Below are positions 9,072 to 27,060 of a stretch of DNA of 46,561 bases, in pieces. Below the pieces are notes generated by a model. The model saw nothing but the letters and a program-made list of their open reading frames with translations, made no database searches and was not told the origin of the DNA. Origin of the DNA: a bacterium (GTDB taxonomy: Bacteria > JAHJDO01); contig JAHJDO010000109.1 in assembly GCA_018812485.1 (NCBI GenBank), positions 1-46,561 of the forward strand, written 5' to 3'. Each line of letters begins with the position of its first letter. Positions within the stretch are counted from its first letter, which is position 1. The position numbers and the translations under genes are program-made.

Positions 9072-10073
9072 TCAAACTAGTTTCACTCCGCGCTTGCCTT
9101 TTGAAATCTCACCAATCAAATAGGCTTCTTCTCTTACTTCAGAGAGAAAAGACATTACTTTATCAGCTTCTTTTTTGGAAACCACAAGTATCATCCCAAT
9201 TCCCATATTAAACACTTTAAACATTTCCTTTGCTTCAATATTCCCTTTTTTCTGAATTTGTTCAAATATATGTGGTGTTTTCCAGCTTTTTGTATTTATA
9301 TGAGCCTGGCAATCTTTTGGGAGAACCCTTACAAGATTTCCTTCAATGCCTCCGCCAGTTATATGCGCCATACCTTTTATCTTGCATTTTTCCAAAAGCT
9401 TCATAATGACCTTGACATAAATTCTGGTAGGTGTCAGAAGCTCTTTCTTTAATCCTGAATCAATCTTATCAATATTAAATACCTTTCTTACTAAAGAAAA
9501 ACCATTGCTGTGCAGCCCTGAGGATTGAAGTCCTATTATGATATCACCTGAAGTGATTTTTGCTCCGGTTATTATTTTATTCTTATCCACAATCCCTACT
9601 GTGAATCCTGCAAGCTCATATTCGCCCGGCTTATAAAATCCGGGCATTTCTGCTGTTTCTCCGCCAAGCAAAGCGCACTCTGCCTCCCTGCATCCCTTGA
9701 CAATTCCTTCTACAACACTTGCTGCGCTTTTAACATTAAGACGCCCTGTAGCTAAATAATCAAGAAAGAATAAAGGCTTTGCGCCCTGCACAATAAGATC
9801 ATTCACACACATTGCCACAAGGTCTATGCCAACAGTGTTGTATGTTTTACACTTGCAGGCTATTTCAAGCTTTGTGCCAACACCATCTGTTGCGCCAAGT
9901 AGAACTGGCTTAGTATACTTAGTAATATCAGGCTCATAAAAACCCGCAAAACCGCCTAAACCACTAAGAACACCTTTATCAAACGTAGATTTTGCAAGAG
10001 GTTTTATTATGTCTACAAATTTGTCCCCTTTTTTTATATCCACGCCAGCTTTTTTGTACGTTAACTTTTTCAT
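9072..10073 (-). CDS. purM: Phosphoribosylformylglycinamidine cyclo-ligase (AIR synthetase, PurM)
   Basis: ATP-dependent closure of FGAM to aminoimidazole ribonucleotide, step five of purine synthesis. The 333 residues show the AIRS pattern: TYKKAGVDIKKGDKFVDII at the N-terminus, GATDGVGTKLEIA (about 60-72), NDLIVQGAKPLFFLDYLATG, GGETAEMPGFY, and the C-terminal HITGGGIEGNLVRVLP. Normal length is about 340. It lies alone between the HU gene and the transposase scar; no other pur gene is visible. A hairpin with a T-run upstream (10084-10120) may separate it from the HU transcript. Confidence 0.97.
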   Translation of the reverse strand: MKKLTYKKAGVDIKKGDKFVDIIKPLAKSTFDKGVLSGLGGFAGFYEPDITKYTKPVLLGATDGVGTKLEIACKCKTYNTVGIDLVAMCVNDLIVQGAKPLFFLDYLATGRLNVKSAASVVEGIVKGCREAECALLGGETAEMPGFYKPGEYELAGFTVGIVDKNKIITGAKITSGDIIIGLQSSGLHSNGFSLVRKVFNIDKIDSGLKKELLTPTRIYVKVIMKLLEKCKIKGMAHITGGGIEGNLVRVLPKDCQAHINTKSWKTPHIFEQIQKKGNIEAKEMFKVFNMGIGMILVVSKKEADKVMSFLSEVREEAYLIGEISKGKRGVKLV

Positions 10074-10083
10074 CTTTTATCAC

Positions 10084-10120
10084 AAAAAAATAAGGCCCGA
10101 ATACTAAAAAGCCGAGCCTT
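10084..10120 (-). terminator. Possible intrinsic terminator after the HU gene
   Basis: On the minus strand a weak hairpin (AAGGC at 10120-10116 pairing with GCCTT at 10096-10092) is followed by A and seven T residues. It falls between the HU stop and purM. The stem is only five pairs with a long loop, so the call is tentative. Confidence 0.35.
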
Positions 10121-10142
10121 GCGCTTTAAGAACATATCTTCT

Positions 10143-10418
10143 CTAGCCGAGCATCCTTTCTTTCATTATTTTTCCCGGCTTGAATAAAACAACCTTTCTT
10201 GCAGGGATAGGCACTTCTTGTCCAGTCTTTGGATTACGGCCTAATCTGGCTTTTCTCGACTTTTGTTTAAAAACACCAAAGTTGCGCAATTCCACTTTTT
10301 CTCCTTTGAGAACACTATCACACACATAGTGCAATAGTTTATCAACCACTTTTGCTACGATAACTTGAGTCACTCCCAATTCCTCAGAAATTTTTATTAC
10401 AATGTCTCTCTTCGTCAT
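10143..10418 (-). CDS. hup: HU/IHF-family nucleoid DNA-binding protein
   Basis: Small histone-like protein that bends and compacts DNA as a dimer. The 91-residue length and the family signature are clear: an N-terminal helical dimerisation part (MTKRDIVIKISEELG), the VELRNFGVFKQKSRKARLGR block, and the beta-arm segment NPKTGQEVPIPARKVVLFKP with the intercalating proline region. HU and IHF cannot be separated here; one copy beside rplU suggests a general HU role. It is 13 nt downstream of the unknown membrane protein gene and so probably co-transcribed with it. Confidence 0.96.
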   Translation of the reverse strand: MTKRDIVIKISEELGVTQVIVAKVVDKLLHYVCDSVLKGEKVELRNFGVFKQKSRKARLGRNPKTGQEVPIPARKVVLFKPGKIMKERMLG

Positions 10419-10431
10419 TACCTAGTCTCTC

Positions 10432-11079
10432 CTACTTGATTTTGCTTTGTTCTTCTTTCTTTATCCTACTTGATATTTGGTCTAGCATGTTTCTAATATT
10501 AGCGATAATAGACTTATCCTCAACAACACTTCCCGCTGCCTGTGCAGGAACATTTGTCTTTGCCTTAGGTTCTGCAACAGTCTTTACAAAAAATACTCTA
10601 TATCCAACGTAAGCTCCTGCTGTTAAAACAGCTATTAGTATTGCAAAAATGAAAAGCTTAATTAACCCTTTTCTGATTTTAGGTATGATTACGGTTCCTA
10701 TTTTGCTGATCTTTGAAAGCGCCTCCTTCTGCCCTTCAAGCCCTCCCAATCGTTTATTCAAGAATATATAGGAAACATGCCAATCATTTCCCAGTTTTCT
10801 GGATTGCATATCCGAGGCAGCTATATTACTCAATGAAACTGACTGACTAAGTATACTTGATATTTTATTATCAGGACTGTACTGCCTTTCAAGTATATTG
10901 CCTATTGACTCATACTTACGCGCAAGAAGACTTTTGGATTCCATAAACTCCTGCTCTTTCACCGGATTTACAGAAGTTAAATTCTCTCCGCCTTGTTTTA
11001 GAAGATCTCCAAATGCGACCCACAGCTGAATGAATCCCTTTAAAGCTATAATATCTGCCTCTAGTTTTCTATCACGCAT
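10432..11079 (-). CDS. Unknown single-pass membrane protein between L21 and HU
   Basis: I do not recognise this 215-residue protein. It has a soluble N-terminal part of about 135 residues, mostly predicted helix (KGFIQLWVAFGDLLKQGGEN near 14-33), then one hydrophobic segment at about 140-162 (KLFIFAILIAVLTAGAYVGY), then a short alanine/proline-rich linker and a charged helix ending in KKEEQSKIK. There is no signal peptide, so the N-terminus is probably cytoplasmic. The start overlaps the rplU stop by 8 nt, which implies translational coupling with a ribosomal protein gene. It occupies the place where rpmA (L27) normally sits. It could be a structural or secretion-related protein, but nothing supports a specific role. 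Confidence 0.7.
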   Translation of the reverse strand: MRDRKLEADIIALKGFIQLWVAFGDLLKQGGENLTSVNPVKEQEFMESKSLLARKYESIGNILERQYSPDNKISSILSQSVSLSNIAASDMQSRKLGNDWHVSYIFLNKRLGGLEGQKEALSKISKIGTVIIPKIRKGLIKLFIFAILIAVLTAGAYVGYRVFFVKTVAEPKAKTNVPAQAAGSVVEDKSIIANIRNMLDQISSRIKKEEQSKIK

Positions 11080-11404
11080 TCTTTTTCTCTACCTTCCCAA
11101 GAGATATTTTCCCAATCTTAACCTCCGTTAAAAGCTGCCTATGTCCAATCTTACGACTGTAACCCTTGCGTCTTTTCTTTTTAAATGCTATAATTTTTTT
11201 CCCTTTGACCTGTGAGATAACTTCTCCATGAACCTTAGCATTCTCTAGATGACTTTTATCTATGGATACGGTTTCTTTATTAGAAATTAAGATAGGTTCA
11301 AAATCGATCTTGCCACCAACCTTTTTTTCGATCTTCTCTATTTTTATAATGTCCCCTTCTGAAACTTTGAATTGCTTACCACCTGTAACAATAACTGCCT
11401 GCAC
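11072..11404 (-). CDS. rplU: 50S ribosomal protein L21
   Basis: L21 binds 23S rRNA in the large subunit. The sequence starts AVIVTGGKQFKVSEGD and continues to the basic KKKRRKGYSRKIGHRQ block, the two family hallmarks. I chose the GTG at 11404 rather than an ATG 18 nt upstream, because a strong AAGGAG Shine-Dalgarno lies 8 nt before the GTG and the family normally begins right at M-x-AVI. This gives 110 residues, close to the usual 103. Its stop overlaps the unknown membrane gene by 8 nt. L27 (rpmA), the usual partner, does not follow. Confidence 0.95.
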   Translation of the reverse strand: MQAVIVTGGKQFKVSEGDIIKIEKIEKKVGGKIDFEPILISNKETVSIDKSHLENAKVHGEVISQVKGKKIIAFKKKRRKGYSRKIGHRQLLTEVKIGKISLGKVEKKNA

Positions 11405-11432
11405 TTTATATCTCCTTTCCAATTGTCAGCGA

Positions 11433-11461
11433 AGATTATCATATACATAAGCAATTGTCAA
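11433..11461 (-). promoter_or_regulatory. Putative sigma70 promoter for rplU
   Basis: On the minus strand TTGACA (11461-11456), a 17-nt spacer, and TAATCT (11438-11433) preceded by TGA give a full -35 and an extended -10, with a start predicted near 11426, about 22 nt before the rplU GTG. A 9-bp direct repeat CAATTGTCA (11420-11428 and 11452-11460) overlaps it. Prediction by eye only. Confidence 0.45.
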
Positions 11462-11487
11462 ACTCGAATGTCCTGCATGCCATAGTG

Positions 11488-12984
11488 TTACAAACATTCT
11501 ATTTCCGAAGCCTCTATATGCATACTCAGATCTGATTCTAGAATGATCTTCTTATTATATGTTAATTCCAACCCAGTCAGTGTTTTCCTATAATGCTTGA
11601 GAAGATAGGAAGATATATACGGGTGAATCTTTACCCAGATAGTCTGCATTGATCTGGTTGCACATAACTGCTCTACCCTTCTCTGTAATTCAATACATGT
11701 AGTTGCTAATGACTTTATATTGCCATTTCCCTTACAATAAGGACAAACTTGAAACAAGTAATCAATGACACTTTGCTTAACTCTTTGTCTGGTCATTTCT
11801 ACAAGACCAAGTTTACTCAATTGCGCCACTGTAGTCTTAGCCCTGTCCTTTTTTAAAGCATCTTTAAAGACTCGCAATAATTCATGTTTATGCTTTTCAT
11901 ACTTCATATCAATAAAATCGATTATTATAATTCCGCCCATATCCCTGAGACGGAGCTGGCGAGCTATCTTTACAGCAGCTTCAAGGTTAGTTTTTAAAAC
12001 TGTATCTTCCAAGGAGCTTTTTCCCACATATTTCCCTGTATTTACATCTATAGAAACAAGAGCCTCTGTTTGCTCAATTAATATCCACCCGCCGCTTTTC
12101 AATCTCACTTTGTTTCGCAACGCCTTATCTATTTCCTTTTCTAAATTATACTTATCGAATAACTTTTGTTTCTCATTATAAAATTTTATACGAGATTTCA
12201 TTTCAGGCAGTACTCCACCCACAAACTGCCTCAACTTGTTGTATTCATCATTTGAATCTATCAGCACTGTTTGGATATCAGGACGCAATAAGTCCCTCAC
12301 AAGCCTGTGGATCAAGTTATACTCTTGATAAACTACAGTCAATGCCTCAGATATTTTTGCCCTTTTCTGAATCCTTCTCCAAAGTCTTACCAAATAATTA
12401 ATTTCATCATAAAACTCCTTTTCTGTCTTTCCTACGCCTCCTGTTCTAATAATGAGCCCCATATTCTCAGTTCTAATTTTTTTAGCAATCTCCTTTAAAC
12501 GATATCTTTCATTTTGATCATCTATCTTCCTGGAGACACCTATATGATCAACTGTTGGCATCAAAACCAAGAATCTGCCGGGTATGGAAATAAAAGAGGA
12601 TAGTTTCACCCCTTTGGTTCCCAATTGTTCCTTTATAACTTGAACAAGTATTTCCTGTTCATTAGTCAATATATCTGATATAGAGTCTTTTCGGGATCTC
12701 CTCGAAACTATTTCACCATTTCCTTCATCCTCTTCCACATCTTCTGGTACTGCTGAAGGAGTTGCTATATCTTTAACATGCAGAAATCCATTTTTCTCCA
12801 GCCCTATATCTACAAATGCAGATTGTATGCCTGGCAATATGGCTTTTACTCTGCCCTTGTAAATATTGCCTGCAATGCGTCTCTCTCCCTTTCTTTCAAT
12901 AGCAAACTCCGCTAACACACCTTCTTCCAACAGCGCTGTCCTTACTTCATAAGCGTCTACGCTTATAATCAATTCCTTTTTCAC
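11488..12984 (-). CDS. rng: Ribonuclease G/E family endoribonuclease
   Basis: Single-strand endoribonuclease for rRNA maturation and mRNA decay. The 498 residues have an N-terminal S1 domain (about 38-125) with an acidic insertion, then the catalytic core. Asp313 (SIDVNTG) and Asp356 (IIDFIDM) keep the 43-residue spacing of the E. coli RNase E Mg-binding pair D303/D346. The zinc-link CPYC falls at 414-417, also at the expected distance. There is no long unstructured C-terminus, so this is the RNase G type and not full RNase E. It stands 83 nt upstream of rplU, a common bacterial order, and just downstream of tRNA-Leu. Confidence 0.96.
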   Translation of the reverse strand: MKKELIISVDAYEVRTALLEEGVLAEFAIERKGERRIAGNIYKGRVKAILPGIQSAFVDIGLEKNGFLHVKDIATPSAVPEDVEEDEGNGEIVSRRSRKDSISDILTNEQEILVQVIKEQLGTKGVKLSSFISIPGRFLVLMPTVDHIGVSRKIDDQNERYRLKEIAKKIRTENMGLIIRTGGVGKTEKEFYDEINYLVRLWRRIQKRAKISEALTVVYQEYNLIHRLVRDLLRPDIQTVLIDSNDEYNKLRQFVGGVLPEMKSRIKFYNEKQKLFDKYNLEKEIDKALRNKVRLKSGGWILIEQTEALVSIDVNTGKYVGKSSLEDTVLKTNLEAAVKIARQLRLRDMGGIIIIDFIDMKYEKHKHELLRVFKDALKKDRAKTTVAQLSKLGLVEMTRQRVKQSVIDYLFQVCPYCKGNGNIKSLATTCIELQRRVEQLCATRSMQTIWVKIHPYISSYLLKHYRKTLTGLELTYNKKIILESDLSMHIEASEIECL

Positions 12985-13009
12985 TACATTCTCCTAAATG
13001 TTTGTTCGG

Positions 13010-13095
13010 TGCCGGAGGAGGGAGTCGAACCCTCATGGAGTTTAAGCTCCACCGGATTTTGAGTCCGGCGCGTCTGCCAGTTTCACCACCCCGGC
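13010..13095 (-). tRNA. tRNA-Leu (anticodon CAA)
   Basis: An 86-nt class II tRNA on the minus strand: acceptor GCCGGGG pairs with CUCCGGC, the anticodon stem CCGGA/UCCGG encloses loop CTCAAAA giving anticodon CAA for codon UUG, a long variable arm follows (GGAGC...CTCC), and the T arm contains GGTTCGACT. The 3' CCA is not encoded (ACCG follows). It lies 25 nt upstream of the RNase G gene. Confidence 0.95.
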
Positions 13096-13124
13096 TAGTA
13101 TTTTAATCTAGTATTCCCATTTAA

Positions 13125-14075
13125 TCAATTACAGTCTGGCACCAGCGGGCCTGCAAGCTCTTTAAGGAAGAAGAGTTTTCCAGCCAAAGTAGGCATAAAA
13201 CTGGAAGGAATCCAGATATTTGGTCCGTGTCTTAAAGTAACCCAGAGAGATAATCCCTGCCACATCATTCCCCTACCTAATGTCCCATCACATCCGCCGA
13301 TTATTTTATCCGCTTTGAGGAATAGACCCGGACCAATTGTATTGGCAAAACATGGAACTAGAGTTGTGCGACTCTTAAAACTGGTTATTGCGTTCTGTTC
13401 TATGGTCAAAGGATGTAGTTTTGCTCCCAATCTGTATTCCTGCTTCTTCCATTTTTCCTCTCCTAAAAATTCGCCGGCAAAATGCGGCTCCCAAAAAGCA
13501 ATATGAAACACTCTTCCAATACCAAAAACAACTATGAGTTTTGCCCCCTCTTTTTTGAGCTGTCCTATCTTCTCAGCATATGTGGGAAGAACATTCTTAA
13601 GCGCAAAATGTCGTTGGTTTTTTGGAACAGTCAGATCTCCGAGCGGTCCATAAAAAGCTTGCTGCATTGCATTTTGAAAAGTTCCTATATTATCAGGAGG
13701 TAATGTGTTTCCATCTTTATCGCTCCATTCATCCATGTTGAACCCATAAACATGCTTGCAATCCACATTCCATTCTTTTAGAAAATAAACGGCCCATTTA
13801 TACATTCCCATTGGACCAACAGGCAATATAAACGCTATCTTCCTGCCCTCATCTTTTGTCCTTCTAATCTCTATAGCTATTTCATGACCCATCATAGTAT
13901 CAAAATCACTCAAAGTTTCGCATGGAACAGGTTCAAACTTCTTGTTCCACCAATCCTGACGCTCGGTAACTGACTCCGGGGGATTATCACAACATTTATC
14001 CAGCTTCTCAATATCCCACCCTTGCGGGAAGAAATTCTCTAATAAAGATCCTTTAATTGTGCTCATTAAATCCAT
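13125..14075 (-). CDS. NagB-like (glucosamine-6-phosphate isomerase/deaminase family) protein with altered active site
   Basis: The 316 residues match the NagB/6-phosphogluconolactonase family: GFNMDEWSD (111-119, Asp115 equals catalytic Asp72 of E. coli NagB) and [13 protein letters not shown] (185-197), the counterpart of GIGxDGHIAFNEP. In the latter His191 and Glu196 are kept, but the aspartate equivalent to Asp141 is Val189 and the next glycine is Phe190. NagB is about 266 residues, and this protein has an N-terminal extension. It begins 2 nt after the PIG-L deacetylase stop, so the two are one unit and probably process an N-acetylated amino sugar. Loss of Asp141 makes true deaminase activity uncertain; an isomerase or altered substrate is possible. 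Confidence 0.8.
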
Positions 14076-14077
14076 AA

Positions 14078-14854
14078 TTATCCTCCATTATCTTGTTTCT
14101 TATATTTAACCTTGTCCTTTAACAACTTCTCTAAAATATTATCCTGAGGGAACGGATGTCCTTTATGCTGTCTGAATCCTTCGGCATATTCTATGCCAAT
14201 TTCTTTTCCTCTTCTGCTTGAAATCTCCTTCATAGTCTCTGTGTATTTGTCCATACCGTGCTGTCTTTTCAACCAGGAGCGTTGACTTTCATGTTTCCTT
14301 AACATGCTTGTTTTGGTTTCCATTACATCTTTAATATCTACATAAAATTCAGGATGCACAGGATTGCCAAATCTATCCTTTAAATCCAGAGAATCTCCAT
14401 AATATAGATATGGAATCTTGGATGTCGCTTTTGCTGGATTTACTAAGGCAGTGTGATAATTGGGAATTGGTGCGTTAAAACACCCGTCCCACACTAAATC
14501 AGCAGTTATCTCATGGTCCTTCATATAATCCTGAGGAGACATGGTAATAACAATGTCAGGATCCACTTTTCGTATCATTTCTGTAACCATGAATCTTGTT
14601 GGATTATCAAACACAACATGTAAGCAGGATATGCCACAGCTAATATATTCTGCCTCAAGCAGTTTTGCTGATGACTTAGCTTCCATATACCGTTTTCTGC
14701 TCAAGTCTGCTGGAACATACTCAACAGACCCCATATCCCCTGAACCCACGGTTGCAATGGTTATCTTATGCCCTTTTTTCTTCAGTAGAGCAAGAGTTCC
14801 AGCCATAATAAATTCTACATCATCAGGATGCATTCCAATACCAAAAATCTTCAT
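14078..14854 (-). CDS. PIG-L/LmbE-family N-deacetylase
   Basis: Zinc-dependent deacetylase family (PIG-L, MshB, BshB) acting on GlcNAc-type substrates. The signature GMHPDDVEF (7-15) provides the zinc-binding His9, Asp11 and Asp12, and a second site appears as [13 protein letters not shown] with Asp113 and His114. The length of 258 is typical. No transmembrane segment or signal is seen, so it is cytoplasmic. Its immediate neighbour is the NagB-like gene (2 nt gap), which supports amino-sugar catabolism: deacetylation followed by isomerisation. The specific sugar is not readable. Confidence 0.9.
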
Positions 14855-14875
14855 AATTTCATACCCTCCTTCCTC

Positions 14876-15658
14876 CTATTTTATCTTATGTTCGTATCTT
14901 TTACCACTCTCTAATTCCACAGTAACACTGCTTCTGAGTATATTTAAATCAACCACCTTCCCCTGCCCATATTCTGTATCTATCGTTGCATCTATTTTAG
15001 GAAAAGACTTTTTCATTTCTTGATACGACTTTGATTCATATCTCAGGCAACACATCAAGCGACCACATAAGCCTGATATTTTTGAGGGGTCTAAGTGAAA
15101 ATTCTGAGATTTAGCATTTTGAATGGTAACTGCCTGAAACTCCTTAATGAAACTTGCACAACAAAGAACCCTCCCACAATGCCCACAATATCCTGCAATA
15201 TTTTTTGCTCTATCTCGTACGCCCACTTGTCTTAATTCTATTCTTGTTTTTAATGTATGCTCAATGTCTTTTAACAGGTCTCTAAAATCCACTCTATCGT
15301 CCGCCACAAAATGGAATATTATTTTATTTCCCTCATGTATGCACTTTGCATCTATAACTCTAATTGGAAGATTATGTTTGGTTACTTTTTCTAAACATAT
15401 TGCTAATGACTTTTTCTCTCTCTCAAATATATCCTGTATCTGACTTATATCACTCTCCGTTGCAACTCTAATGATTTGTCCTCTTTCTTTAGAGCATATA
15501 CAATCAGCTACCTCTTGTATCCCTGATATAATTTTAGCATAATATTTGTCGCCATCTACTTCTATTAGACAGTAATCATTATACTTGGCAACAGTGTTGC
15601 CAATATCAAGCCATAATGTTCTGTCTTTGCAAATCCTAACCTGGATTATTTTATGCAT
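14876..15658 (-). CDS. ricT: PSP1-domain protein RicT/YaaT
   Basis: Homologue of B. subtilis RicT (YaaT), a member of the RicA-RicF-RicT complex that assists RNA processing and carries Fe-S clusters. The 260-residue protein shows the two cysteine clusters of the family, YCGHCGRVLCC and GLCGRLMCCLRYES, plus VEVDGDKYYAKI-type N-terminal sheets and a closing VVDLNILRSSVTVEL strand. It overlaps holB by 8 nt, repeating the tmk-holB-yaaT order known from Firmicutes. Family call certain; partners RicA and RicF are not in the window. Confidence 0.93.
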   Translation of the reverse strand: MHKIIQVRICKDRTLWLDIGNTVAKYNDYCLIEVDGDKYYAKIISGIQEVADCICSKERGQIIRVATESDISQIQDIFEREKKSLAICLEKVTKHNLPIRVIDAKCIHEGNKIIFHFVADDRVDFRDLLKDIEHTLKTRIELRQVGVRDRAKNIAGYCGHCGRVLCCASFIKEFQAVTIQNAKSQNFHLDPSKISGLCGRLMCCLRYESKSYQEMKKSFPKIDATIDTEYGQGKVVDLNILRSSVTVELESGKRYEHKIK

Positions 15659-19136: not shown

Positions 19137-20643
19137 AAAATCCCATAGATACACCACTCCGAAGATAACTGATCCTATCAGGTCTATTTTAGATGAATTC
19201 AAAATATCCCAAAGTTTCCCAAAATTAGTAATAGAAGAATGCGAAAGAATTGATCCATTTATTTCTAAAGAAGAAATTAAGAAACGCCGCAACCTAACGG
19301 AACTTACATGTTTTACAATAGACCCCGAAGATGCAAAGGATTTTGACGATGCAGTCTCCATTGAGAAAACTGAGAATGGAAGTTTCTTACTGGGCGTTCA
19401 TATAGCGGATGTTGATCATTACGTAAATAAGAATAAGCATATAGACAGCCAGGCTCTTTCCAGAGGAACAAGCATATATCTTCCTGATAGGGTGATTCCA
19501 ATGCTGCCTTCCAAACTTTCTGAGAATCTGTGCAGTTTAAAGCCTGACGAAAACAGATTAACTTTAACAGTTATGATAAAAATAGATGCACAGGGCAATA
19601 TTAGAGAATACGAAATCTTTGAGAGCCTAATTAAAAGCAAGGCAAGGCTATCCTATGAATCCGCAGAGGAATTAATCCACTCCAATAGTAAACACACGGA
19701 AATATCATTAGCCTTAAAAACTATGTACAAACTAAGCAGGATATTAGATAAAAAAAGATTGGAGAGAGGATACATTGATTTTGATGTGCCTGAGATTAAG
19801 ATATCACTTGACGGGAATGGGAAAGTCATTGATATTCAAAAAAAGAAGAGATTATCCAGCCATATTTTGATCGAGGAATTCATGCTTCTTGCAAATCAGT
19901 GTGTAGCAGAATACATTACCAAAAATAAGGTTCCTATGATCTATCGCGTTCATGAAACTCCAGACGACCTAAAAATAAAAGACTTCGCATTGCTTGCAAA
20001 AACACTGAATTATAGATTTGATCAAAATAAATCTAAAAATCCAAAATACATACAGAGATTCCTGCATAAAACAAATGGGCAAAAGGACCACGTTCTTGTT
20101 AGCCAGATTCTTTTAACATGCATGCAAAAAGCAATATATTCTACCAAGAATGTTGGGCACTTTGGGCTTGCATTAAACTGCTATACTCATTTCACATCCC
20201 CTATCAGACGCTATCCTGACTTAATTGTTCACAGAATTCTTAAAAACAAGTTTAAAAATCGTATAGATAACCTTTCTGAGATTGCAGGCATTGCTTCTGA
20301 AAGAGAGCAAATAGCAGTTAAAATAGAAAGAGAATCAATTAAGTTAAAACAGGTTGAGTTTATGAAAAATAAACTTTGGGATGTATTTGAGGGTGTAATA
20401 TCCGGTGTTCAGCCATATGGTTTGTTTGTTGAGCTTAATGATACTTTAGCTGAAGGGCTTGTTCATGTCAGCGCACTAAAGAACGACTACTATACGTTCT
20501 CTGAGAAACAGTTTGCACTTGTAGGAAAACGCACAAAGAGAAGATTCCAGCTTGGAGACGCAGTAAAGGTACAAGTAGTTAGAGTGGATAGTAATAAAGG
20601 GCTAATCGATTTTATATTGATTGAAAATAAAACAAGCGGCTGA
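19111..20643 (+). CDS. rnr: Ribonuclease R/II family 3'-5' exonuclease, N-terminally short
   Basis: Processive 3'-5' exoribonuclease. The core RNB domain begins with TIDPEDAKDFDDAVS; Asp71, Asp77, Asp79 and Asp80 match the four metal-binding aspartates of the family (RNase II D201, D207, D209, D210). HFTSPIRRYPDLIVHR closes the domain, and an S1 domain follows at about 425-505. At 510 residues the N-terminal cold-shock domains and helix-turn-helix of full RNase R (about 700-800) are missing: the protein starts in the linker before the RNB domain. A TTG at 19111 and an ATG at 19114 are both possible starts, inside the end of the foldase gene. Confidence 0.9.
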   Translation: MMKYDVHSKKSHRYTTPKITDPIRSILDEFKISQSFPKLVIEECERIDPFISKEEIKKRRNLTELTCFTIDPEDAKDFDDAVSIEKTENGSFLLGVHIADVDHYVNKNKHIDSQALSRGTSIYLPDRVIPMLPSKLSENLCSLKPDENRLTLTVMIKIDAQGNIREYEIFESLIKSKARLSYESAEELIHSNSKHTEISLALKTMYKLSRILDKKRLERGYIDFDVPEIKISLDGNGKVIDIQKKKRLSSHILIEEFMLLANQCVAEYITKNKVPMIYRVHETPDDLKIKDFALLAKTLNYRFDQNKSKNPKYIQRFLHKTNGQKDHVLVSQILLTCMQKAIYSTKNVGHFGLALNCYTHFTSPIRRYPDLIVHRILKNKFKNRIDNLSEIAGIASEREQIAVKIERESIKLKQVEFMKNKLWDVFEGVISGVQPYGLFVELNDTLAEGLVHVSALKNDYYTFSEKQFALVGKRTKRRFQLGDAVKVQVVRVDSNKGLIDFILIENKTSG

Positions 20644-20697
20644 TCAACATTGTGCGTTGTTGAAACTGTCGAAAAACTCAAAAACACGGTATTTTCA

Positions 20698-21690
20698 TTA
20701 ATTTTTTAACACTCTATGTCTCCACATAATTAACAAGATTAAACTGACAATTCCTACTATAAGATATCCTTGAGCAGGATCTAAGCCAAGCACACCTTTT
20801 ATTTCATAAATCGGCGTCAGAAGAATCCAGTAAAGAATAGACCCAAAAATTAAGGCCACGATATGATGCTTAGTAATATCTTGATGGTATATCTGAAAAA
20901 AAACGAATAACAAAACAAAGATAATTTCAACTAACTGAATGGAAATTGTAAATAAAGGTGGTTGGGATTTTGCTAATATGTTTGGGATTGCTTGAAGAGA
21001 CCACATATAAAAAAAGCCTGGGAATCCAAAAATAAAAGGTAAAAGTAATGGTATTTTTCTTGTAGTTATCCTGCTATTTCTATTCTTAAAGGCTATCCCA
21101 ATTAAAGATAACACAATAAGGAAACTTCCGAGTAGTAAAAAAGGGTGCGGCCAATAGGGTATCATTTTGTTTCCTGCTACTGTGCCAAAAGTTTTCATGC
21201 CCATTACGACAATAAATATGAAACCAGTAAAACTGAATACTAATCCTCTTCTTCCCAAAAGAGAAACATTTTTGTATTTTGGCCATAATAAGTCTACAAT
21301 TGCAATAGGAATCAAAGTGCTCACTGTTGCATGGAAAAGCAAGAGTACAATTGTCCATGACCATTGTACCCCAAGAAACATTCCATACCCCAAAAGAACC
21401 CCTCCATCAATCCAATTTGTATTAAAGAATGCTTTTGTAGTAAGCGCTTCTTCAACAATTCCATAAGCAACCGCAAGAAAAATAATTGACCATTGTAGTT
21501 TCCATCTTACTCTGGCTTCTCTAATAAGGACTGTACCGCAGCCATATAAGAGTACACCTAATAAAAGAGCATTTGGGCTAAAGAAACAAAGTGGCGGAGT
21601 AGAGCCAGAAAGCAATTCCCCTAATACAGGAGACAAGAACAATAGAAAGATTAATATTAAGTATTCTCTTTTTATTTTTAGTTTGAACAT
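20698..21690 (-). CDS. Multipass membrane protein with CPBP-like EE/H motifs
   Basis: A 330-residue protein with about nine or ten hydrophobic segments and few charges. Between segments it has YGIVEEALTTKAFFN (77-90, Glu80-Glu81) and LLLFHATVSTLIP (116-128, Phe119, His120). This recalls the CPBP/Abi intramembrane protease motifs EExxxR and FxxxH, but the arginine after EE is missing (Lys86 is close), so it is at most a divergent member. The end converges on the RNase R gene (54 nt gap). A GGAAGAT ribosome-binding site precedes the ATG. The 120-nt gap upstream (21691-21810) has no obvious promoter. Function unknown. Confidence 0.65.
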   Translation of the reverse strand: MFKLKIKREYLILIFLLFLSPVLGELLSGSTPPLCFFSPNALLLGVLLYGCGTVLIREARVRWKLQWSIIFLAVAYGIVEEALTTKAFFNTNWIDGGVLLGYGMFLGVQWSWTIVLLLFHATVSTLIPIAIVDLLWPKYKNVSLLGRRGLVFSFTGFIFIVVMGMKTFGTVAGNKMIPYWPHPFLLLGSFLIVLSLIGIAFKNRNSRITTRKIPLLLPFIFGFPGFFYMWSLQAIPNILAKSQPPLFTISIQLVEIIFVLLFVFFQIYHQDITKHHIVALIFGSILYWILLTPIYEIKGVLGLDPAQGYLIVGIVSLILLIMWRHRVLKN

Positions 21691-21810
21691 ACTTTATCTT
21701 CCAATATCTAACATAAAGCCCAGCTCACTGGTTTTTGCATGTTTCTTGAAAAAATTCCATATAAGTTCGTATTAGGATTTTTAATCTAGTTTACATCTAA
21801 CCAGCCATCA

Positions 21811-23172
21811 TTAAGGAACTGGATTAACAGGAACGGGCTGCATTGCCCCATCAACGATAGAAGGATCGGAAAGTATCTCACTAAGAAAATGAGGATCAGA
21901 AAGAATTTCTCGTCGTATATCTTCCGGGCTGGGATGAGCTGGAGCAGGAATACCCGCTGGAGCAGATGCTTCTTTCCTGGAAACGACCGAATCCTTATTT
22001 TGTTGGATAATCTCCATAAAAGCCATAAAGGTAGAGGTGCGCTCTTTCTTATTTATGGCTTTGATAACTTCCTGATGGTAATCTGCATCAGTAGTAGCTG
22101 CACTTTCCTCCGGATATTTAAAGAAAGTCTGAGTCCACACAGGCGTCATGGCTTCTAAACCCCACACACTGGCATAATAAGCCATAGCTTTAAGCCATTT
22201 GCTGTCGAGTTCCTGAAACTTATTATCACCGATCCAGGCGCTGATTAAGTTAGTCAATTTTATCTTCTTACCAACATCTCGACTATAGTAGATTGGGCGC
22301 CAGGTCTCTCCTATATAAATATTTTTCCCCTTTTCTTTGGCTGTAGTAATCATTTTATTTACTGGCTGCATGTCTTTAAATGAATAAATGTTTAAAGATA
22401 ATACATTCAATTCGTCGATTGATAAAAGCTCATTAAATATCTGCTGTGACTCCTGTGAAGAAGGCATGATGCTTGCGCCGAGCCTGGTATTCGGAGATGC
22501 TTTCTTTACTGATACTATGATCTCCTGTGTGAATTTAGACCAGTTACCGGGCAATACCTGGATTCTCATCCTTTTAGCCACATTGGAGGGCTTATGCAGT
22601 ACTATAAATATTTCAGGTTCAAAGCGAGCGGCAATTCGGGGATAAATCTTTATTGCTGCTTCCTTCAACTCATCAAAACTGTTAAATCGATGATACACCG
22701 CGGAATACTGTGGGGTTATTATAAGCTCCAGATTCTTTTTTCGAATATATTCGATAAGTTTGTCATACTTTTTAATTGTTTCCTGGTCGTTATCCAACCA
22801 AGGAAAAAAACCCATATTTATATCAATTCCCTTGACACCTGCTTCTTTCAGGGCATCAACATACTTCTTGAGTGTCTTTAACGGCGTATTTTTGATATAT
22901 ATTTCATGAGCAAAGATAAGGTTTGCTCTGAAACTAAGTGGCTGCTGCGGGTATTTGTTACACTGCTCAGTAATTTTATCCAAAATATTATTCATTTTGG
23001 AAATGTACTGTTCCTGGGTAATATTCGGCAATTTGTCTCTCTCATAGGTATCTTGAAGCGCTCCCCTTTTATGCCCTCTTTTTTTGTCCTGAGCGTATCC
23101 ATTCATACTTGAAGCCAGAATTATTGCAATTAAACATCCTATGCCGGCTATCCTTATTATTGTCTTCTTCAT
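21811..23172 (-). CDS. Secreted TIM-barrel glycosidase-like protein, acid/base Glu replaced by Lys
   Basis: The 453-residue protein starts with a Sec signal (MKKTIIRIAG...SSMNGYA, likely cleavage after Ala27), then a barrel-like domain sharing close sequence with the larger neighbour at 23271-25517: ITQEQYI, FAHEIYIKN, DALKEAGVKGIDINMG, FPWLDND. The clan GH-A style second-half motif is IFIVLHKPSN (188-197) with Lys194, where the neighbour has IFIVIHEPTT with Glu182. The later IYIGETWR (285-292) keeps the candidate nucleophile Glu289. The C-terminus is a proline/alanine-rich tail with ILSDP repeats. Retaining catalysis is therefore doubtful and a binding role is possible. It has its own promoter in the gap upstream. 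Confidence 0.7.
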   Translation of the reverse strand: MKKTIIRIAGIGCLIAIILASSMNGYAQDKKRGHKRGALQDTYERDKLPNITQEQYISKMNNILDKITEQCNKYPQQPLSFRANLIFAHEIYIKNTPLKTLKKYVDALKEAGVKGIDINMGFFPWLDNDQETIKKYDKLIEYIRKKNLELIITPQYSAVYHRFNSFDELKEAAIKIYPRIAARFEPEIFIVLHKPSNVAKRMRIQVLPGNWSKFTQEIIVSVKKASPNTRLGASIMPSSQESQQIFNELLSIDELNVLSLNIYSFKDMQPVNKMITTAKEKGKNIYIGETWRPIYYSRDVGKKIKLTNLISAWIGDNKFQELDSKWLKAMAYYASVWGLEAMTPVWTQTFFKYPEESAATTDADYHQEVIKAINKKERTSTFMAFMEIIQQNKDSVVSRKEASAPAGIPAPAHPSPEDIRREILSDPHFLSEILSDPSIVDGAMQPVPVNPVP

Positions 23173-23208
23173 ACTTTACCTCCCTTTTTTCTAAATTGGA
23201 TTCATCCT

Positions 23209-23237
23209 ATCATATATTTATTAACCATCCTGGTCAA
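23209..23237 (-). promoter_or_regulatory. Strong putative sigma70 promoter for the 453-residue paralog
   Basis: On the minus strand TTGACC (23237-23232), exactly 17 nt, then TATGAT (23214-23209): five of six matches in each box. The start is predicted near 23202, and the gene's GGGAGGT ribosome-binding site follows shortly. This gives the downstream paralog housekeeping expression in addition to any read-through from the ECF operon. Confidence 0.55.
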
Positions 23238-23270
23238 TGCCAAGCTCTATCATCACAATTTTTATTCCAA

Positions 23271-25517
23271 TCAATTCTTAACATTACCTCCCGAGGCTTC
23301 AGATAGCTCAATTATTACTTTTTTGCCTAACTCATTTTTGATTCTAAGAACTAAGTATGCAATTATTTTTCCCCCGTTAGGAGACCACGCAAAGTCAGCA
23401 GCAGTCACACCGCCAGGGATATATTCCTTGCTGCTTGGATTATTAAAATAAGTAAGCCTTTTTTTGTTTTTACCATTTGAATCCATTATCCAGTAGTCAG
23501 CTAAAACCTCATATTGCTTAATTTGCTGTGGTATTTCCATACTGGACATCCAAATTATATTCCTGCCATCTGGCGAGAAATGAGCATGCTCATCCCATTC
23601 TGAAAGTGATGTATTCGTTAGCGCTATTAATTCTGTTGTAATAAGATTGTATGAATAAATATCCAGATTCTTATATTGGCCATCTTTTGTTGCGGAAAAC
23701 AGGATAATCTTATCATCAGGGAAAAATCCATGAGTCTCATAAAACTGCATATCACCCGGATTCAGTATTAATATGTTTTCAAGACGAACATTACTATGGT
23801 TAATAATAATATCTGCTATTTTTATAACCCATCTCCCTGAAGGTTTGATATTACGATCTATCATTTCTGACCAAATAAGTTTTTTCCCATCATGGGAGAA
23901 ATGAGGATGAAGAACGGCTTTTCTTTCAGGAATATTTGTCAGCTGCCAGAATTGCTTTGCACATTTGTCCATAAGCCAAATATTGTTATTTACCCCTGAT
24001 CCAGGTCCTGTAAACGCTTTCTCTATTTTTTGAAAAATATTCGGAAAACCTGCCAAGCTTGGATTCTGCGCTTGAAATACAATATATTCACCAGAAGGAT
24101 GCCATGCAGGTTGCCCATTATGTTTTTGAGGGACATTCGGGTTATCGCAGGTGAGACATCTTTGCCCTGAGCCATCAGACTTCATAATCCAAACATCATA
24201 ATAACCATCCTCTCCTCTTCTATCAAAGGCAATCAAGTCATCTTTTGGAGACCAGGCAACCCTGCCGCCATCTTCTTGAATTATTTTTATGCTTTTTACC
24301 AATCGAGAACTATAATTATTATTTTTGCCCAGCTTTATTTCTGGCTTTATTGCTGTTTGGGCTAGGCCTCTTTTCTGGATAATCTCTTTGAATGCTTCAA
24401 AGGTCTTGGTACGCTCTTCATTGTTGATAGCTTCGATCACTTGTAGATTATAACCTTGGCTAAGTGCATTACCCCCTTCTTTTACATATTTAAAGAAGGT
24501 CTGTATCCAGAAAGGCGTTATTGCCTCAAGTCCCCATACACTGGCATAAAGTGACATTGCTTCTAACCACTTAACGTCAAGTGTCTGAAATGCTTCATTT
24601 CCAATTCCCATAGCACTGATGTTGTCTAGTGTTTCAGTCTTACCTGCTTGTGGTACGTAGTATGGCGACCGCCATGTCTCTTCAATGTAGACTTTTTTCC
24701 CTTGTCTTCTGGCTTCTCGAATCATTTTATTTGCTGCATCAAAACTTCTAATATTATAAATATCCAGGGTTATTATCTCGAGTTCATCAATGGATAAAAA
24801 TTTATCAAAACATTTCTGTTCAGACTGTATAAACACAGGGTCTGCCAATACTCCTGCCCCGCAACGCGTTTTTTGCGAAACGGCCTTAACGACTCTGGCT
24901 GTTTCTTTAACAAATTCTCCCCACTCTTCCGGGCTAACTTCAAAACCCATTCGACTGGCCATTGTAGTAGGTTCATGTATTACTATAAAAATTTCCGGTG
25001 TATATCGTTTTGCAATTTCAGGATAGATCTGAAGTGCCATATTTCTCCATTCCTCAAAACTATTGACGCGGTGATACATTGGTCCATAAAATGCATTTAT
25101 AGCAATTTGCAGATTATGATGACGGATATATTCAATAAGGTTATCGTATTTTTGAATTGTCTCCTGATGATTATCCAGCCATGGAAATAATCCCATATTG
25201 ATGTCAATTCTGTTTACGCCTGCTTCTTTTAAAGCATCCACACATTTCTTGAGAGTCTCCAGAGGCATGTTCTTGATACAGACTTCATGGGCGAAAAATA
25301 GATTTGCAGAAAAATTAATCTTGTGCTGGGGCTGGTTTTGACAATTAGTTATAATAGAATCAAGAACCCTGTTCATAATATCTATGTACTGCTCTTGGGT
25401 GATAGACTGTCCTCTATCGTCTGCTTGGGCATAGCTTGTCAGAACAAATGTAATGCCAATGAGTAAAATTAGACAAGCGATAATAAGACTTTTGCTGATC
25501 TTCTTTTTTCTTAACAT
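23271..25517 (-). CDS. Secreted TIM-barrel glycosidase-like protein fused to a TolB-like beta-propeller
   Basis: The 748 residues comprise a Sec signal (cleavage near Ala30-Ala32), a barrel-like domain at about 40-385 homologous to the 453-residue neighbour, and a C-terminal six-bladed-propeller-like region (about 405-745) with WSPKDDLIAFDRRG, WHPSGEYIVFQAQ, HFSHDGKKLIWSE and HFSPDGRNIIW, the WSPDG repeat style of TolB/PD40. Candidate catalytic residues are Glu182 in IVIHEPTT and Glu280 in VYIEETWR, arranged like clan GH-A acid/base and nucleophile. Endo-galactanase-like or other glycan activity is possible, but the family is not identified. It follows the small membrane protein by 14 nt in the ECF operon. 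Confidence 0.72.
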   Translation of the reverse strand: MLRKKKISKSLIIACLILLIGITFVLTSYAQADDRGQSITQEQYIDIMNRVLDSIITNCQNQPQHKINFSANLFFAHEVCIKNMPLETLKKCVDALKEAGVNRIDINMGLFPWLDNHQETIQKYDNLIEYIRHHNLQIAINAFYGPMYHRVNSFEEWRNMALQIYPEIAKRYTPEIFIVIHEPTTMASRMGFEVSPEEWGEFVKETARVVKAVSQKTRCGAGVLADPVFIQSEQKCFDKFLSIDELEIITLDIYNIRSFDAANKMIREARRQGKKVYIEETWRSPYYVPQAGKTETLDNISAMGIGNEAFQTLDVKWLEAMSLYASVWGLEAITPFWIQTFFKYVKEGGNALSQGYNLQVIEAINNEERTKTFEAFKEIIQKRGLAQTAIKPEIKLGKNNNYSSRLVKSIKIIQEDGGRVAWSPKDDLIAFDRRGEDGYYDVWIMKSDGSGQRCLTCDNPNVPQKHNGQPAWHPSGEYIVFQAQNPSLAGFPNIFQKIEKAFTGPGSGVNNNIWLMDKCAKQFWQLTNIPERKAVLHPHFSHDGKKLIWSEMIDRNIKPSGRWVIKIADIIINHSNVRLENILILNPGDMQFYETHGFFPDDKIILFSATKDGQYKNLDIYSYNLITTELIALTNTSLSEWDEHAHFSPDGRNIIWMSSMEIPQQIKQYEVLADYWIMDSNGKNKKRLTYFNNPSSKEYIPGGVTAADFAWSPNGGKIIAYLVLRIKNELGKKVIIELSEASGGNVKN

Positions 25518-25531
25518 AATTCGCCTCTATT

Positions 25532-25792
25532 TTATTTGAATGTTTCTAGCAGCTCTTGAGCAGGAACCTTTTCCTGTATAGCTCTTTTTCCCAATTTAGC
25601 TTGTGGCCGGCCAAAGAGAATCATGGCAATAAGCAATAACCTGAAAGCCTGCCAGTAAGTGATGGCTTTTAAATTGAATATTACTGTCATAGTTATGTTC
25701 CAGAGCCATTTGAGAAGCCATACAAACAAGAAGAACATGCCTATCACTGCTGCTATCTTGACTATTAATAATATTACATTCATGCTTTTCAC
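25532..25792 (-). CDS. Small membrane protein of the ECF operon
   Basis: An 86-residue protein with two hydrophobic helices (about 5-32 and 35-60) and a charged C-terminal tail. The middle LLKWLWNITMTVIFNLKAIT and YWQAFRLLLIAMILFG resemble, from memory, small proteins with LWN...F...ITFWQA...ILFG patterns that sit beside ECF sigma factors in Bacteroidota and related groups. It lies 18 nt downstream of the anti-sigma gene and 14 nt upstream of the propeller-fusion gene, with an AAAGGAGGTG ribosome-binding site. It may assist sigma or anti-sigma signalling or anchoring of the secreted proteins. No function is known. Confidence 0.7.
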   Translation of the reverse strand: MKSMNVILLIVKIAAVIGMFFLFVWLLKWLWNITMTVIFNLKAITYWQAFRLLLIAMILFGRPQAKLGKRAIQEKVPAQELLETFK

Positions 25793-25810
25793 CTCCTTTT
25801 TTCTTAATTT

Positions 25811-26326
25811 CTAGGACCCTACATGTATCCTTAAAGAAATATCTCCATTCCTATTTTGCAGACTGATTCCCAAAAAGTTATAATTTAAGCTTATTTCCCT
25901 TAGGTCAAAGTTCCTTGCAGCTGGCCATTTTGTAATAGGATAATCTAGGTTAACTATGGGCCATGAGAATTGAATAAGGCTAATAAAAAGCATGGCTAAA
26001 ACGCATGCAGCCACTTCAGGCCAAAGTCGTTCTGGAGAAAACAAAGGATACTCCCACAAACTTCTTAAAGATGATATTAGACCTGCCTTTTTTATTTGTT
26101 CCCTATCAAGTGCTACTATCTTCTCCTCTAGTCTGCTGTTAAAGTCCGGGGAAAGCTCAACATCCTCCAGATCATTTATAGTATTAATTGTATTTATCAA
26201 GACATCATATTCTCCTCTGCAATTAGAGCATGTCTCAAGGTGTAGCTTAACTTTTTCTTTATCAGTTTTGGTCAGCTCATTATTATAGAAAGACAGAAGA
26301 TTCTTATTTATTCGCCTGCATCTCAT
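25811..26326 (-). CDS. Zinc anti-sigma factor with one membrane segment
   Basis: A 171-residue protein with an N-terminal zf-HC2/ZAS module: Cys3, His29, Cys33 and Cys36 (HLETCSNC) fit the H-x3-C-x2-C signature that holds ECF sigma factors inactive. One transmembrane segment lies at about 103-124 (PEVAACVLAMLFISLIQFSW), and the remaining C-terminal part would be periplasmic. Its ATG overlaps the sigma stop by 1 nt (TAATG), the usual sigma/anti-sigma arrangement, so the partner is the adjacent sigma factor. The signal it senses is unknown. Regulated proteolysis of the C-terminal part is typical of the group but not shown here. Confidence 0.88.
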   Translation of the reverse strand: MRCRRINKNLLSFYNNELTKTDKEKVKLHLETCSNCRGEYDVLINTINTINDLEDVELSPDFNSRLEEKIVALDREQIKKAGLISSLRSLWEYPLFSPERLWPEVAACVLAMLFISLIQFSWPIVNLDYPITKWPAARNFDLREISLNYNFLGISLQNRNGDISLRIHVGS

Positions 26327-26949
26327 TAAATTCTTCCTTCCCTTTTAAGTTGAGATACCTTTTCCCCTAGACTTCTTAGCGCGTAATGGATGCGTGATTT
26401 AACTGTTCCCGCACTACAGCCCAGGGTCAAGGCTATATCTTTATAGTTCAGTCCATTATATATATAAAGAACGAGCGCTGCCTTTTGTTTATGTGGCAAT
26501 GAAGCTATGAGTTTCTTCATATTAGCCCGCTTTTCTTTTTCCTTTAATTCATCCAGAGGTGTTCCGGCTTTGCTAGCTATTGTTTCTTTAAGGCTTACAG
26601 TCGTGCCATTAGGAAACTCATAAGAAGCGTCCAAACTATACTGAAGAAAATTTTTTTTCTTGCGCATTTCATAATAATATAGATTTGTCAATATCTTATA
26701 AAACCATGGTCGGAATCTACAACCGGTATGGAAAAGTGCTGCCTTTTGATATAGAGTTAGAAATGCCATCTGGGCTATATCCTCCGCTAACTCAAAATTT
26801 CTACTAAGCTTATAAAGGTAGTTCACAGCTCGTTTTTGATACCTTTTTGCCAACATATTGAAGCTTCCACGATCACCATTTTTAAACTTCTCTATTAAAG
26901 TTTCATCATCTAGTTCATGTGTACCTGCTGACTTATTTAGTTCTTCCAT
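26326..26949 (-). CDS. ECF-type RNA polymerase sigma factor
   Basis: A 207-residue sigma-70 family protein of the extracytoplasmic-function group: region 2 (FNMLAKRYQKRAVNYLYKL, then ELAEDIAQMAFLTLYQKA) and region 4 (LPHKQKAALVLYIYNGLNYK, DIALTLGCSAGTVKSRIHYAL). Region 3 and the N-terminal region 1.1 are absent, as expected. The operon continues with its anti-sigma factor, a small membrane protein and the secreted barrel proteins, which are its likely regulon. The ATG has no Shine-Dalgarno, and the nearest promoter-like hexamer is TTGAAC at 26983-26978; a GAAC-type ECF -35 is conceivable but no matching -10 was found. Confidence 0.93.
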   Translation of the reverse strand: MEELNKSAGTHELDDETLIEKFKNGDRGSFNMLAKRYQKRAVNYLYKLSRNFELAEDIAQMAFLTLYQKAALFHTGCRFRPWFYKILTNLYYYEMRKKKNFLQYSLDASYEFPNGTTVSLKETIASKAGTPLDELKEKEKRANMKKLIASLPHKQKAALVLYIYNGLNYKDIALTLGCSAGTVKSRIHYALRSLGEKVSQLKREGRI

Positions 26950-27047
26950 ATTTATATATGCTAAAATAGGTTAAAAGGTTCAATTAAGTTACATGTTTTT
27001 TATTAACTTTTCAATTGATTCCTATTTAATTAACGATACAGGTTTAG

Positions 27048-27053
27048 TATAAT
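27048..27053 (+). promoter_or_regulatory. TATAAT -10 box immediately before murC
   Basis: A perfect TATAAT sits 8 nt before the ATG at 27061, so transcription would start at about 27060, giving a nearly leaderless murC message. A -35 at spacing 17 (TTTAAT, 27025-27030) is weak. There is no Shine-Dalgarno before murC. Confidence 0.5.
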
Positions 27054-27060
27054 ATTGCAA

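Follow-up and report, generated by a model that had tools for sequence, protein, structure and literature searches.

Between rnr and murC, in a window of 46,561 nucleotides (the whole stretch of DNA analysed here), lies a block of minus-strand genes for an ECF sigma factor, a zinc-type membrane anti-sigma, a small membrane protein and two secreted proteins, B2 and B1, that share a barrel domain. We read the block as an insertion that carries an operon under ECF control and serves to process glycan outside the cytoplasm, a reading we hold to be slightly more credible than doubtful. The zinc-binding anti-sigma would hold the sigma factor at the membrane until an envelope or glycan signal releases it, a step in which the small membrane protein might assist, and the freed sigma factor would transcribe its own operon. 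The exported products would be B2, a putative retaining β-glycosidase of an unnamed clan GH-A family with a propeller attached, and B1, a diverged paralog without the acid/base residue that probably binds glycan and does not cut it.

The initial annotation of the region had proposed that secreted glycosidase-like proteins are encoded behind a sigma/zinc-anti-sigma module, and the clan GH-A fold and glutamate pair of B2 bear this out. Its further claim that no system with this content has been described agrees with our literature search, which covered sources outside subscription journals and found none. The parts are of known kinds, and their combination is present in no relative searched.

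The block and its junction

The five ORFs, their order and the 1-nt overlap of the sigma and anti-sigma genes were confirmed as first annotated (Table 1). The run of genes, which had been thought to end at B1, extends to a sixth minus-strand gene 3' of B1 in the same block, whose polytopic product matches no Pfam family. Only weak homologs of this protein were seen, on Haladaptatus and Vibrio plasmids.

Table 1. Features of the rnr-murC block, in positions of the window
Feature	Position	Strand	Evidence
ECF-type sigma factor, 207 aa	26326..26949	-	Sigma70_r2 and Sigma70_r4_2
Membrane anti-sigma, 171 aa	25811..26326	-	zf-HC2 (H-x3-C-x2-C), TM, overlap with sigma
Small membrane protein, unnamed family (WLWN...ITYWQAFRLLLIAMILFG)	25532..25783 (ORF from 25792)	-	
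B2: export segment, barrel and PD40 β-propeller	23271..25517	-	AlphaFold2, Foldseek, Pfam
B1: signal-like N-terminus, barrel and Pro-rich C-terminal tail, without propeller	21811..23172	-	
Polytopic membrane protein, 330 aa	20698..21690	-	8 hydrophobic segments
Block, about 6.4 kb, between rnr (RNase R) and murC; inserted here or lost in other congeners	20644..27054		Both flanks
Intergenic segment sigma-murC, common to G001	27018..27060		TATAAT-like element reading into murC

The flanks (rnr ends at 20643, murC starts at 27055) show that the contig is native. Three of the four congeners (G002, G003 and G004) have rnr and murC directly joined, and G003, whose MurC is 94% identical, has nothing of the block. 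The fourth, G001, carries a minus-strand GH13-like (amylase-like) gene in the same junction; its product is secreted (locus L032, G001:C74, 3484-5217; Alpha-amylase 1.1e-07, Malt_amylase_C 7.5e-09). This genome (G000) and G001 have in common a stretch of about 45 bp immediately before murC, with the TATAAT-like element in it; the insertion may therefore be older, its content having been exchanged since. The distribution fits either an insertion here or a loss in the other congeners. A recent foreign origin was considered from base composition and set aside, the GC content of the block resembling that of its surroundings.

Promoter-like matches in the region are at chance level, and the 98-bp gap between B2 and B1 could hold a promoter of its own. 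No target motif of the sigma factor was established in the window: a GAAC[CT]TT at 26981, upstream of the sigma gene, was not taken as evidence because the window holds 17 further occurrences.

The two barrel proteins

As first annotated, B1 and B2 have hydrophobic N-termini and a common barrel (53% identical over 349 aa, E 2e-129). In the AlphaFold2 model of the B2 barrel (residues about 35-385, pLDDT 89), eight strands form a TIM barrel. Foldseek matched it first to PslG of family GH39 among PDB structures (E 1e-9, TM 0.59) and then to GH5, GH10, GH53 and GH26 enzymes; the top matches are nearly all of clan GH-A, and their TM-scores of about 0.45-0.59 suffice to name the clan but neither family nor substrate. 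Clan GH-A enzymes have an acid/base Glu at the end of strand 4 and a nucleophile Glu at the end of strand 7. The (β/α)8 barrel of B2 has E182 (in HEP) at the first of these positions and E280 (in EETW) at the second, a pair conserved in its relatives, the acid/base Glu being kept in every aligned relative save B1. Hence the modelled barrel has the clan GH-A fold, with E182 as putative acid/base and E280 as putative nucleophile; the corresponding pair in PslG is Glu165 and Glu276 (PMC11912335).

Where the initial annotation could assign the barrel to no named family, this holds for Pfam, and the clan can now be given. B2 shares with PslG and GH5 enzymes, its best structural matches, a TIM barrel that has Glu residues on strands 4 and 7, but its barrel is only about 13% identical and matches no Pfam family. 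In profile searches the barrel weakly matched a GH5 endoglucanase (E 2e-4 for alignment A5, 0.009 for A6), and no Pfam GH family passed the cut-off in any of eight barrel members; membership of GH39 or GH5 at the sequence level was accordingly rejected. B2 may thus be a retaining β-glycosidase of an unnamed clan GH-A family.

The second domain of B2, a PD40 β-propeller (residues about 410-748; Pfam PD40, 6.7e-12), was modelled at a moderate pLDDT of 71, and the model matches TolB-type and oligogalacturonate lyase folds. The annotated TolB-like propeller therefore stands as a fold, and does not stand as a plain TolB, to which the sequence match is weak (E 0.0045). At locus L041, from an alphaproteobacterium, the barrel gene has a stand-alone propeller gene on either side, and both propellers align with most of that of B2 at about 28%. 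B2 thus seems to join in one protein two partners that are encoded side by side there. Residues R31, Q81, H149, T207/H208, H256 and D320 (propeller numbering) are identical in B2 and the two L041 propellers, and the register of the repeats suggests a pore-lining position for them, with roughly one in each blade. The Yersinia oligogalacturonate lyase has catalytic Arg217/His242. His149 of the B2 propeller is aligned with the histidine in the lyase's THEFW motif, in a weak match (E 0.005), and Asn stands at the position of the catalytic Arg; PF14583 reached only 0.016, in one member of alignment A7. Despite the shared propeller fold, B2 was not called a PL22 enzyme because the lyase Arg is not aligned, although the His is.

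The two paralogs are not equivalent. B1 has HKP in place of HEP, so that the acid/base Glu at the end of strand 4 is Lys194, and it keeps the nucleophile (E289) and the fold-defining residues. It departs at eight columns where the six other barrels agree; three of these changes, E148K, T150S and M152V (barrel numbering), fall in the strand-4 loop. Its branch in the tree is about three times that of B2 (0.68 versus 0.23), with its placement not settled. The Lys194 codon is one base change from a Glu codon; a sequencing error is possible but less likely in view of the two neighbouring changes. With the acid/base Glu lost and the surrounding loop changed, B1 is probably not a hydrolase. By known glycosidase chemistry, a barrel that has lost the acid/base and kept the nucleophile would more likely bind glycan, or act as a very weak enzyme, than hydrolyse it efficiently.

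B1 also has a sub-threshold Pfam match to MupG_N (2.5e-04), and the block adjoins the murC-murB-ddl-fts cluster. Both would fit a system that monitors the cell's own envelope (peptidoglycan or an outer-membrane glycan), with B2 as an envelope-remodelling enzyme. However, with most congeners lacking the block, its neighbourhood says little, and the glutamate pair and structural matches point to β-glycan hydrolases rather than peptidoglycan enzymes; we regard this account as very unlikely.

Regulatory genes and their link to the barrel genes

The sigma and zinc anti-sigma genes were correctly recognised as members of known families. The sigma factor has sigma-70 regions 2 and 4 only, as in ECF factors (Sigma70_r2, 8.1e-12 at residues 33-99; Sigma70_r4_2, 1.4e-13 at 144-194). 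The adjacent gene encodes a membrane-anchored protein with the zinc motif of ZAS anti-sigmas (HLETCSNC; zf-HC2, 6.8e-06), one transmembrane segment (residues 107-125) and an outer tail of about 46 residues; Pfam and transmembrane prediction found no recognisable sensor domain in it. Another ECF/anti-sigma pair, in G002 (L037, C52, 2976-7527), is followed by genes that by eye resemble planctomycete-type DUF1549/DUF1501.

The small membrane protein, with at least one transmembrane segment, more likely starts at the ATG at 25783, behind AGGAGGTG. In 11 of 13 other loci, drawn from many bacterial families, the gene for its homolog comes immediately 3' of one for an ECF sigma factor (sigma calls confirmed by Pfam), apparently without a zf-HC2 gene between the two, whereas the anti-sigma gene intervenes here. 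No Pfam or NCBIfam model covers the family (L046-L056; LWNWLMPxxFxLxxITxWQAxGLxxLxxILF). A 68%-identical relative in G001 (L044, C206, 1492-1740) has no sigma gene beside it, and adjoins HEPN/nucleotidyltransferase-like genes within what resembles, by eye, a V-type ATPase operon.

The short outer tail of the anti-sigma, without a recognisable sensor domain, leaves room for B1 as the signal input. As an exported pseudoglycosidase that has lost its acid/base and kept its nucleophile and fold-defining residues, it would bind glycan and contact the anti-sigma or the small protein, with B2 as the output enzyme. The contact is purely predicted, B1 is the last of the five genes and the partners show no conserved co-occurrence, and we consider this improbable. 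The fuller version, in which B1 reports glycan binding to the ZAS anti-sigma via the small protein and so switches on B2, whose propeller may have a second active site made up of its conserved Arg, Gln, His, His, His and Asp, is a long shot.

The operon reading depends on whether the regulatory and barrel genes belong together. In a scan of species genomes, barrel relatives turned up in MAGs with the labels Deltaproteobacteria (68%), Kiritimatiellota (61%), Acidiferrobacterales (52%), Alphaproteobacteria (52%) and Desantisbacteria (35%, the gene broken by a TAA), with more distant ones in G383 and, frameshifted, in G171; at least four named phyla are represented. They are sparse: among 385 sampled genomes of about 325 genera, only five gave barrel matches at E 0.01, this genome included, and a second, overlapping sample added none. 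One of the five, in G182, was judged to be chance, having a low score and lying in unrelated genes. No barrel gene was present in the four congeners, and none was found in plasmids or phages. The Desantisbacteria homolog (L009, G187:C19, about 9250-15620), with its in-frame TAA, heads a run of genes for a 624-aa protein of unknown kind, a cupin, a GFO/IDH/MocA oxidoreductase and a GH127/GH76-like protein. We count this setting in favour of a role in glycan processing.

The initial annotation had asked whether the five-gene order is conserved, and a survey of relatives' neighbourhoods found it in none of those searched; a conserved coupled system is not supported, and the coupling of sensing to a glycan-directed output rests on one locus. 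No relative pairs ECF and barrel genes, so control of B1 and B2 by the sigma factor is suggested by adjacency in one genome. This bears on another account, that a generic ECF/anti-sigma/small-protein stress unit and an independent glycosidase-like pair are chance neighbours at an insertion-prone junction, with no regulatory link. No orthologue of the sigma factor was found among the 385 sampled genomes; the nearest homologs, about 36% identical, are mostly followed by a zf-HC2-like gene and then by unrelated genes. Barrel homologs have no ECF gene within about 10 kb, as far as the contigs reach; the GH13-like gene of G001 in the same junction is unrelated; and gaps of 98 bp and 120 bp lie before B1 and between B1 and the polytopic gene. 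Yet cotranscription is favoured, since all six genes lie on one strand and B2 starts 14 bp past the small gene. The close packing of the genes from sigma to B2, and the association of the small protein's family with ECF sigma genes, likewise speak for the operon. We think chance association unlikely, though it is the most serious of the alternatives, and prefer the operon.

Relation to known systems

In SigI/RsgI systems, the sensing domain is fused to the anti-sigma. In cellulolytic clostridia, the membrane anti-sigma of these systems makes the transcription of secreted glycosidases respond to polysaccharide outside the cell (PMC4711584, PMC12203970). The present block resembles them as a membrane anti-sigma system with secreted glycosidases as its likely output. 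It differs in having a sigma factor of ECF type, a short-tailed zf-HC2 anti-sigma, and barrels that are secreted as proteins of their own; with neither a SigI-type sigma factor nor an RsgI N-terminal domain, membership of that type was rejected. Classical ECF/ZAS pairs have the same domain content, overlap and single transmembrane segment, but here the next genes in line encode a small membrane protein of an ECF-associated family and glycosidase-like proteins.

The locus exposes an unnamed clan GH-A family that occurs thinly in several phyla and has a natural link to a propeller partner, and in which a paralog without the acid/base residue adjoins an intact one. It also draws attention to a widespread, unnamed family of small membrane proteins as a candidate regulator for ECF units without a recognisable anti-sigma.
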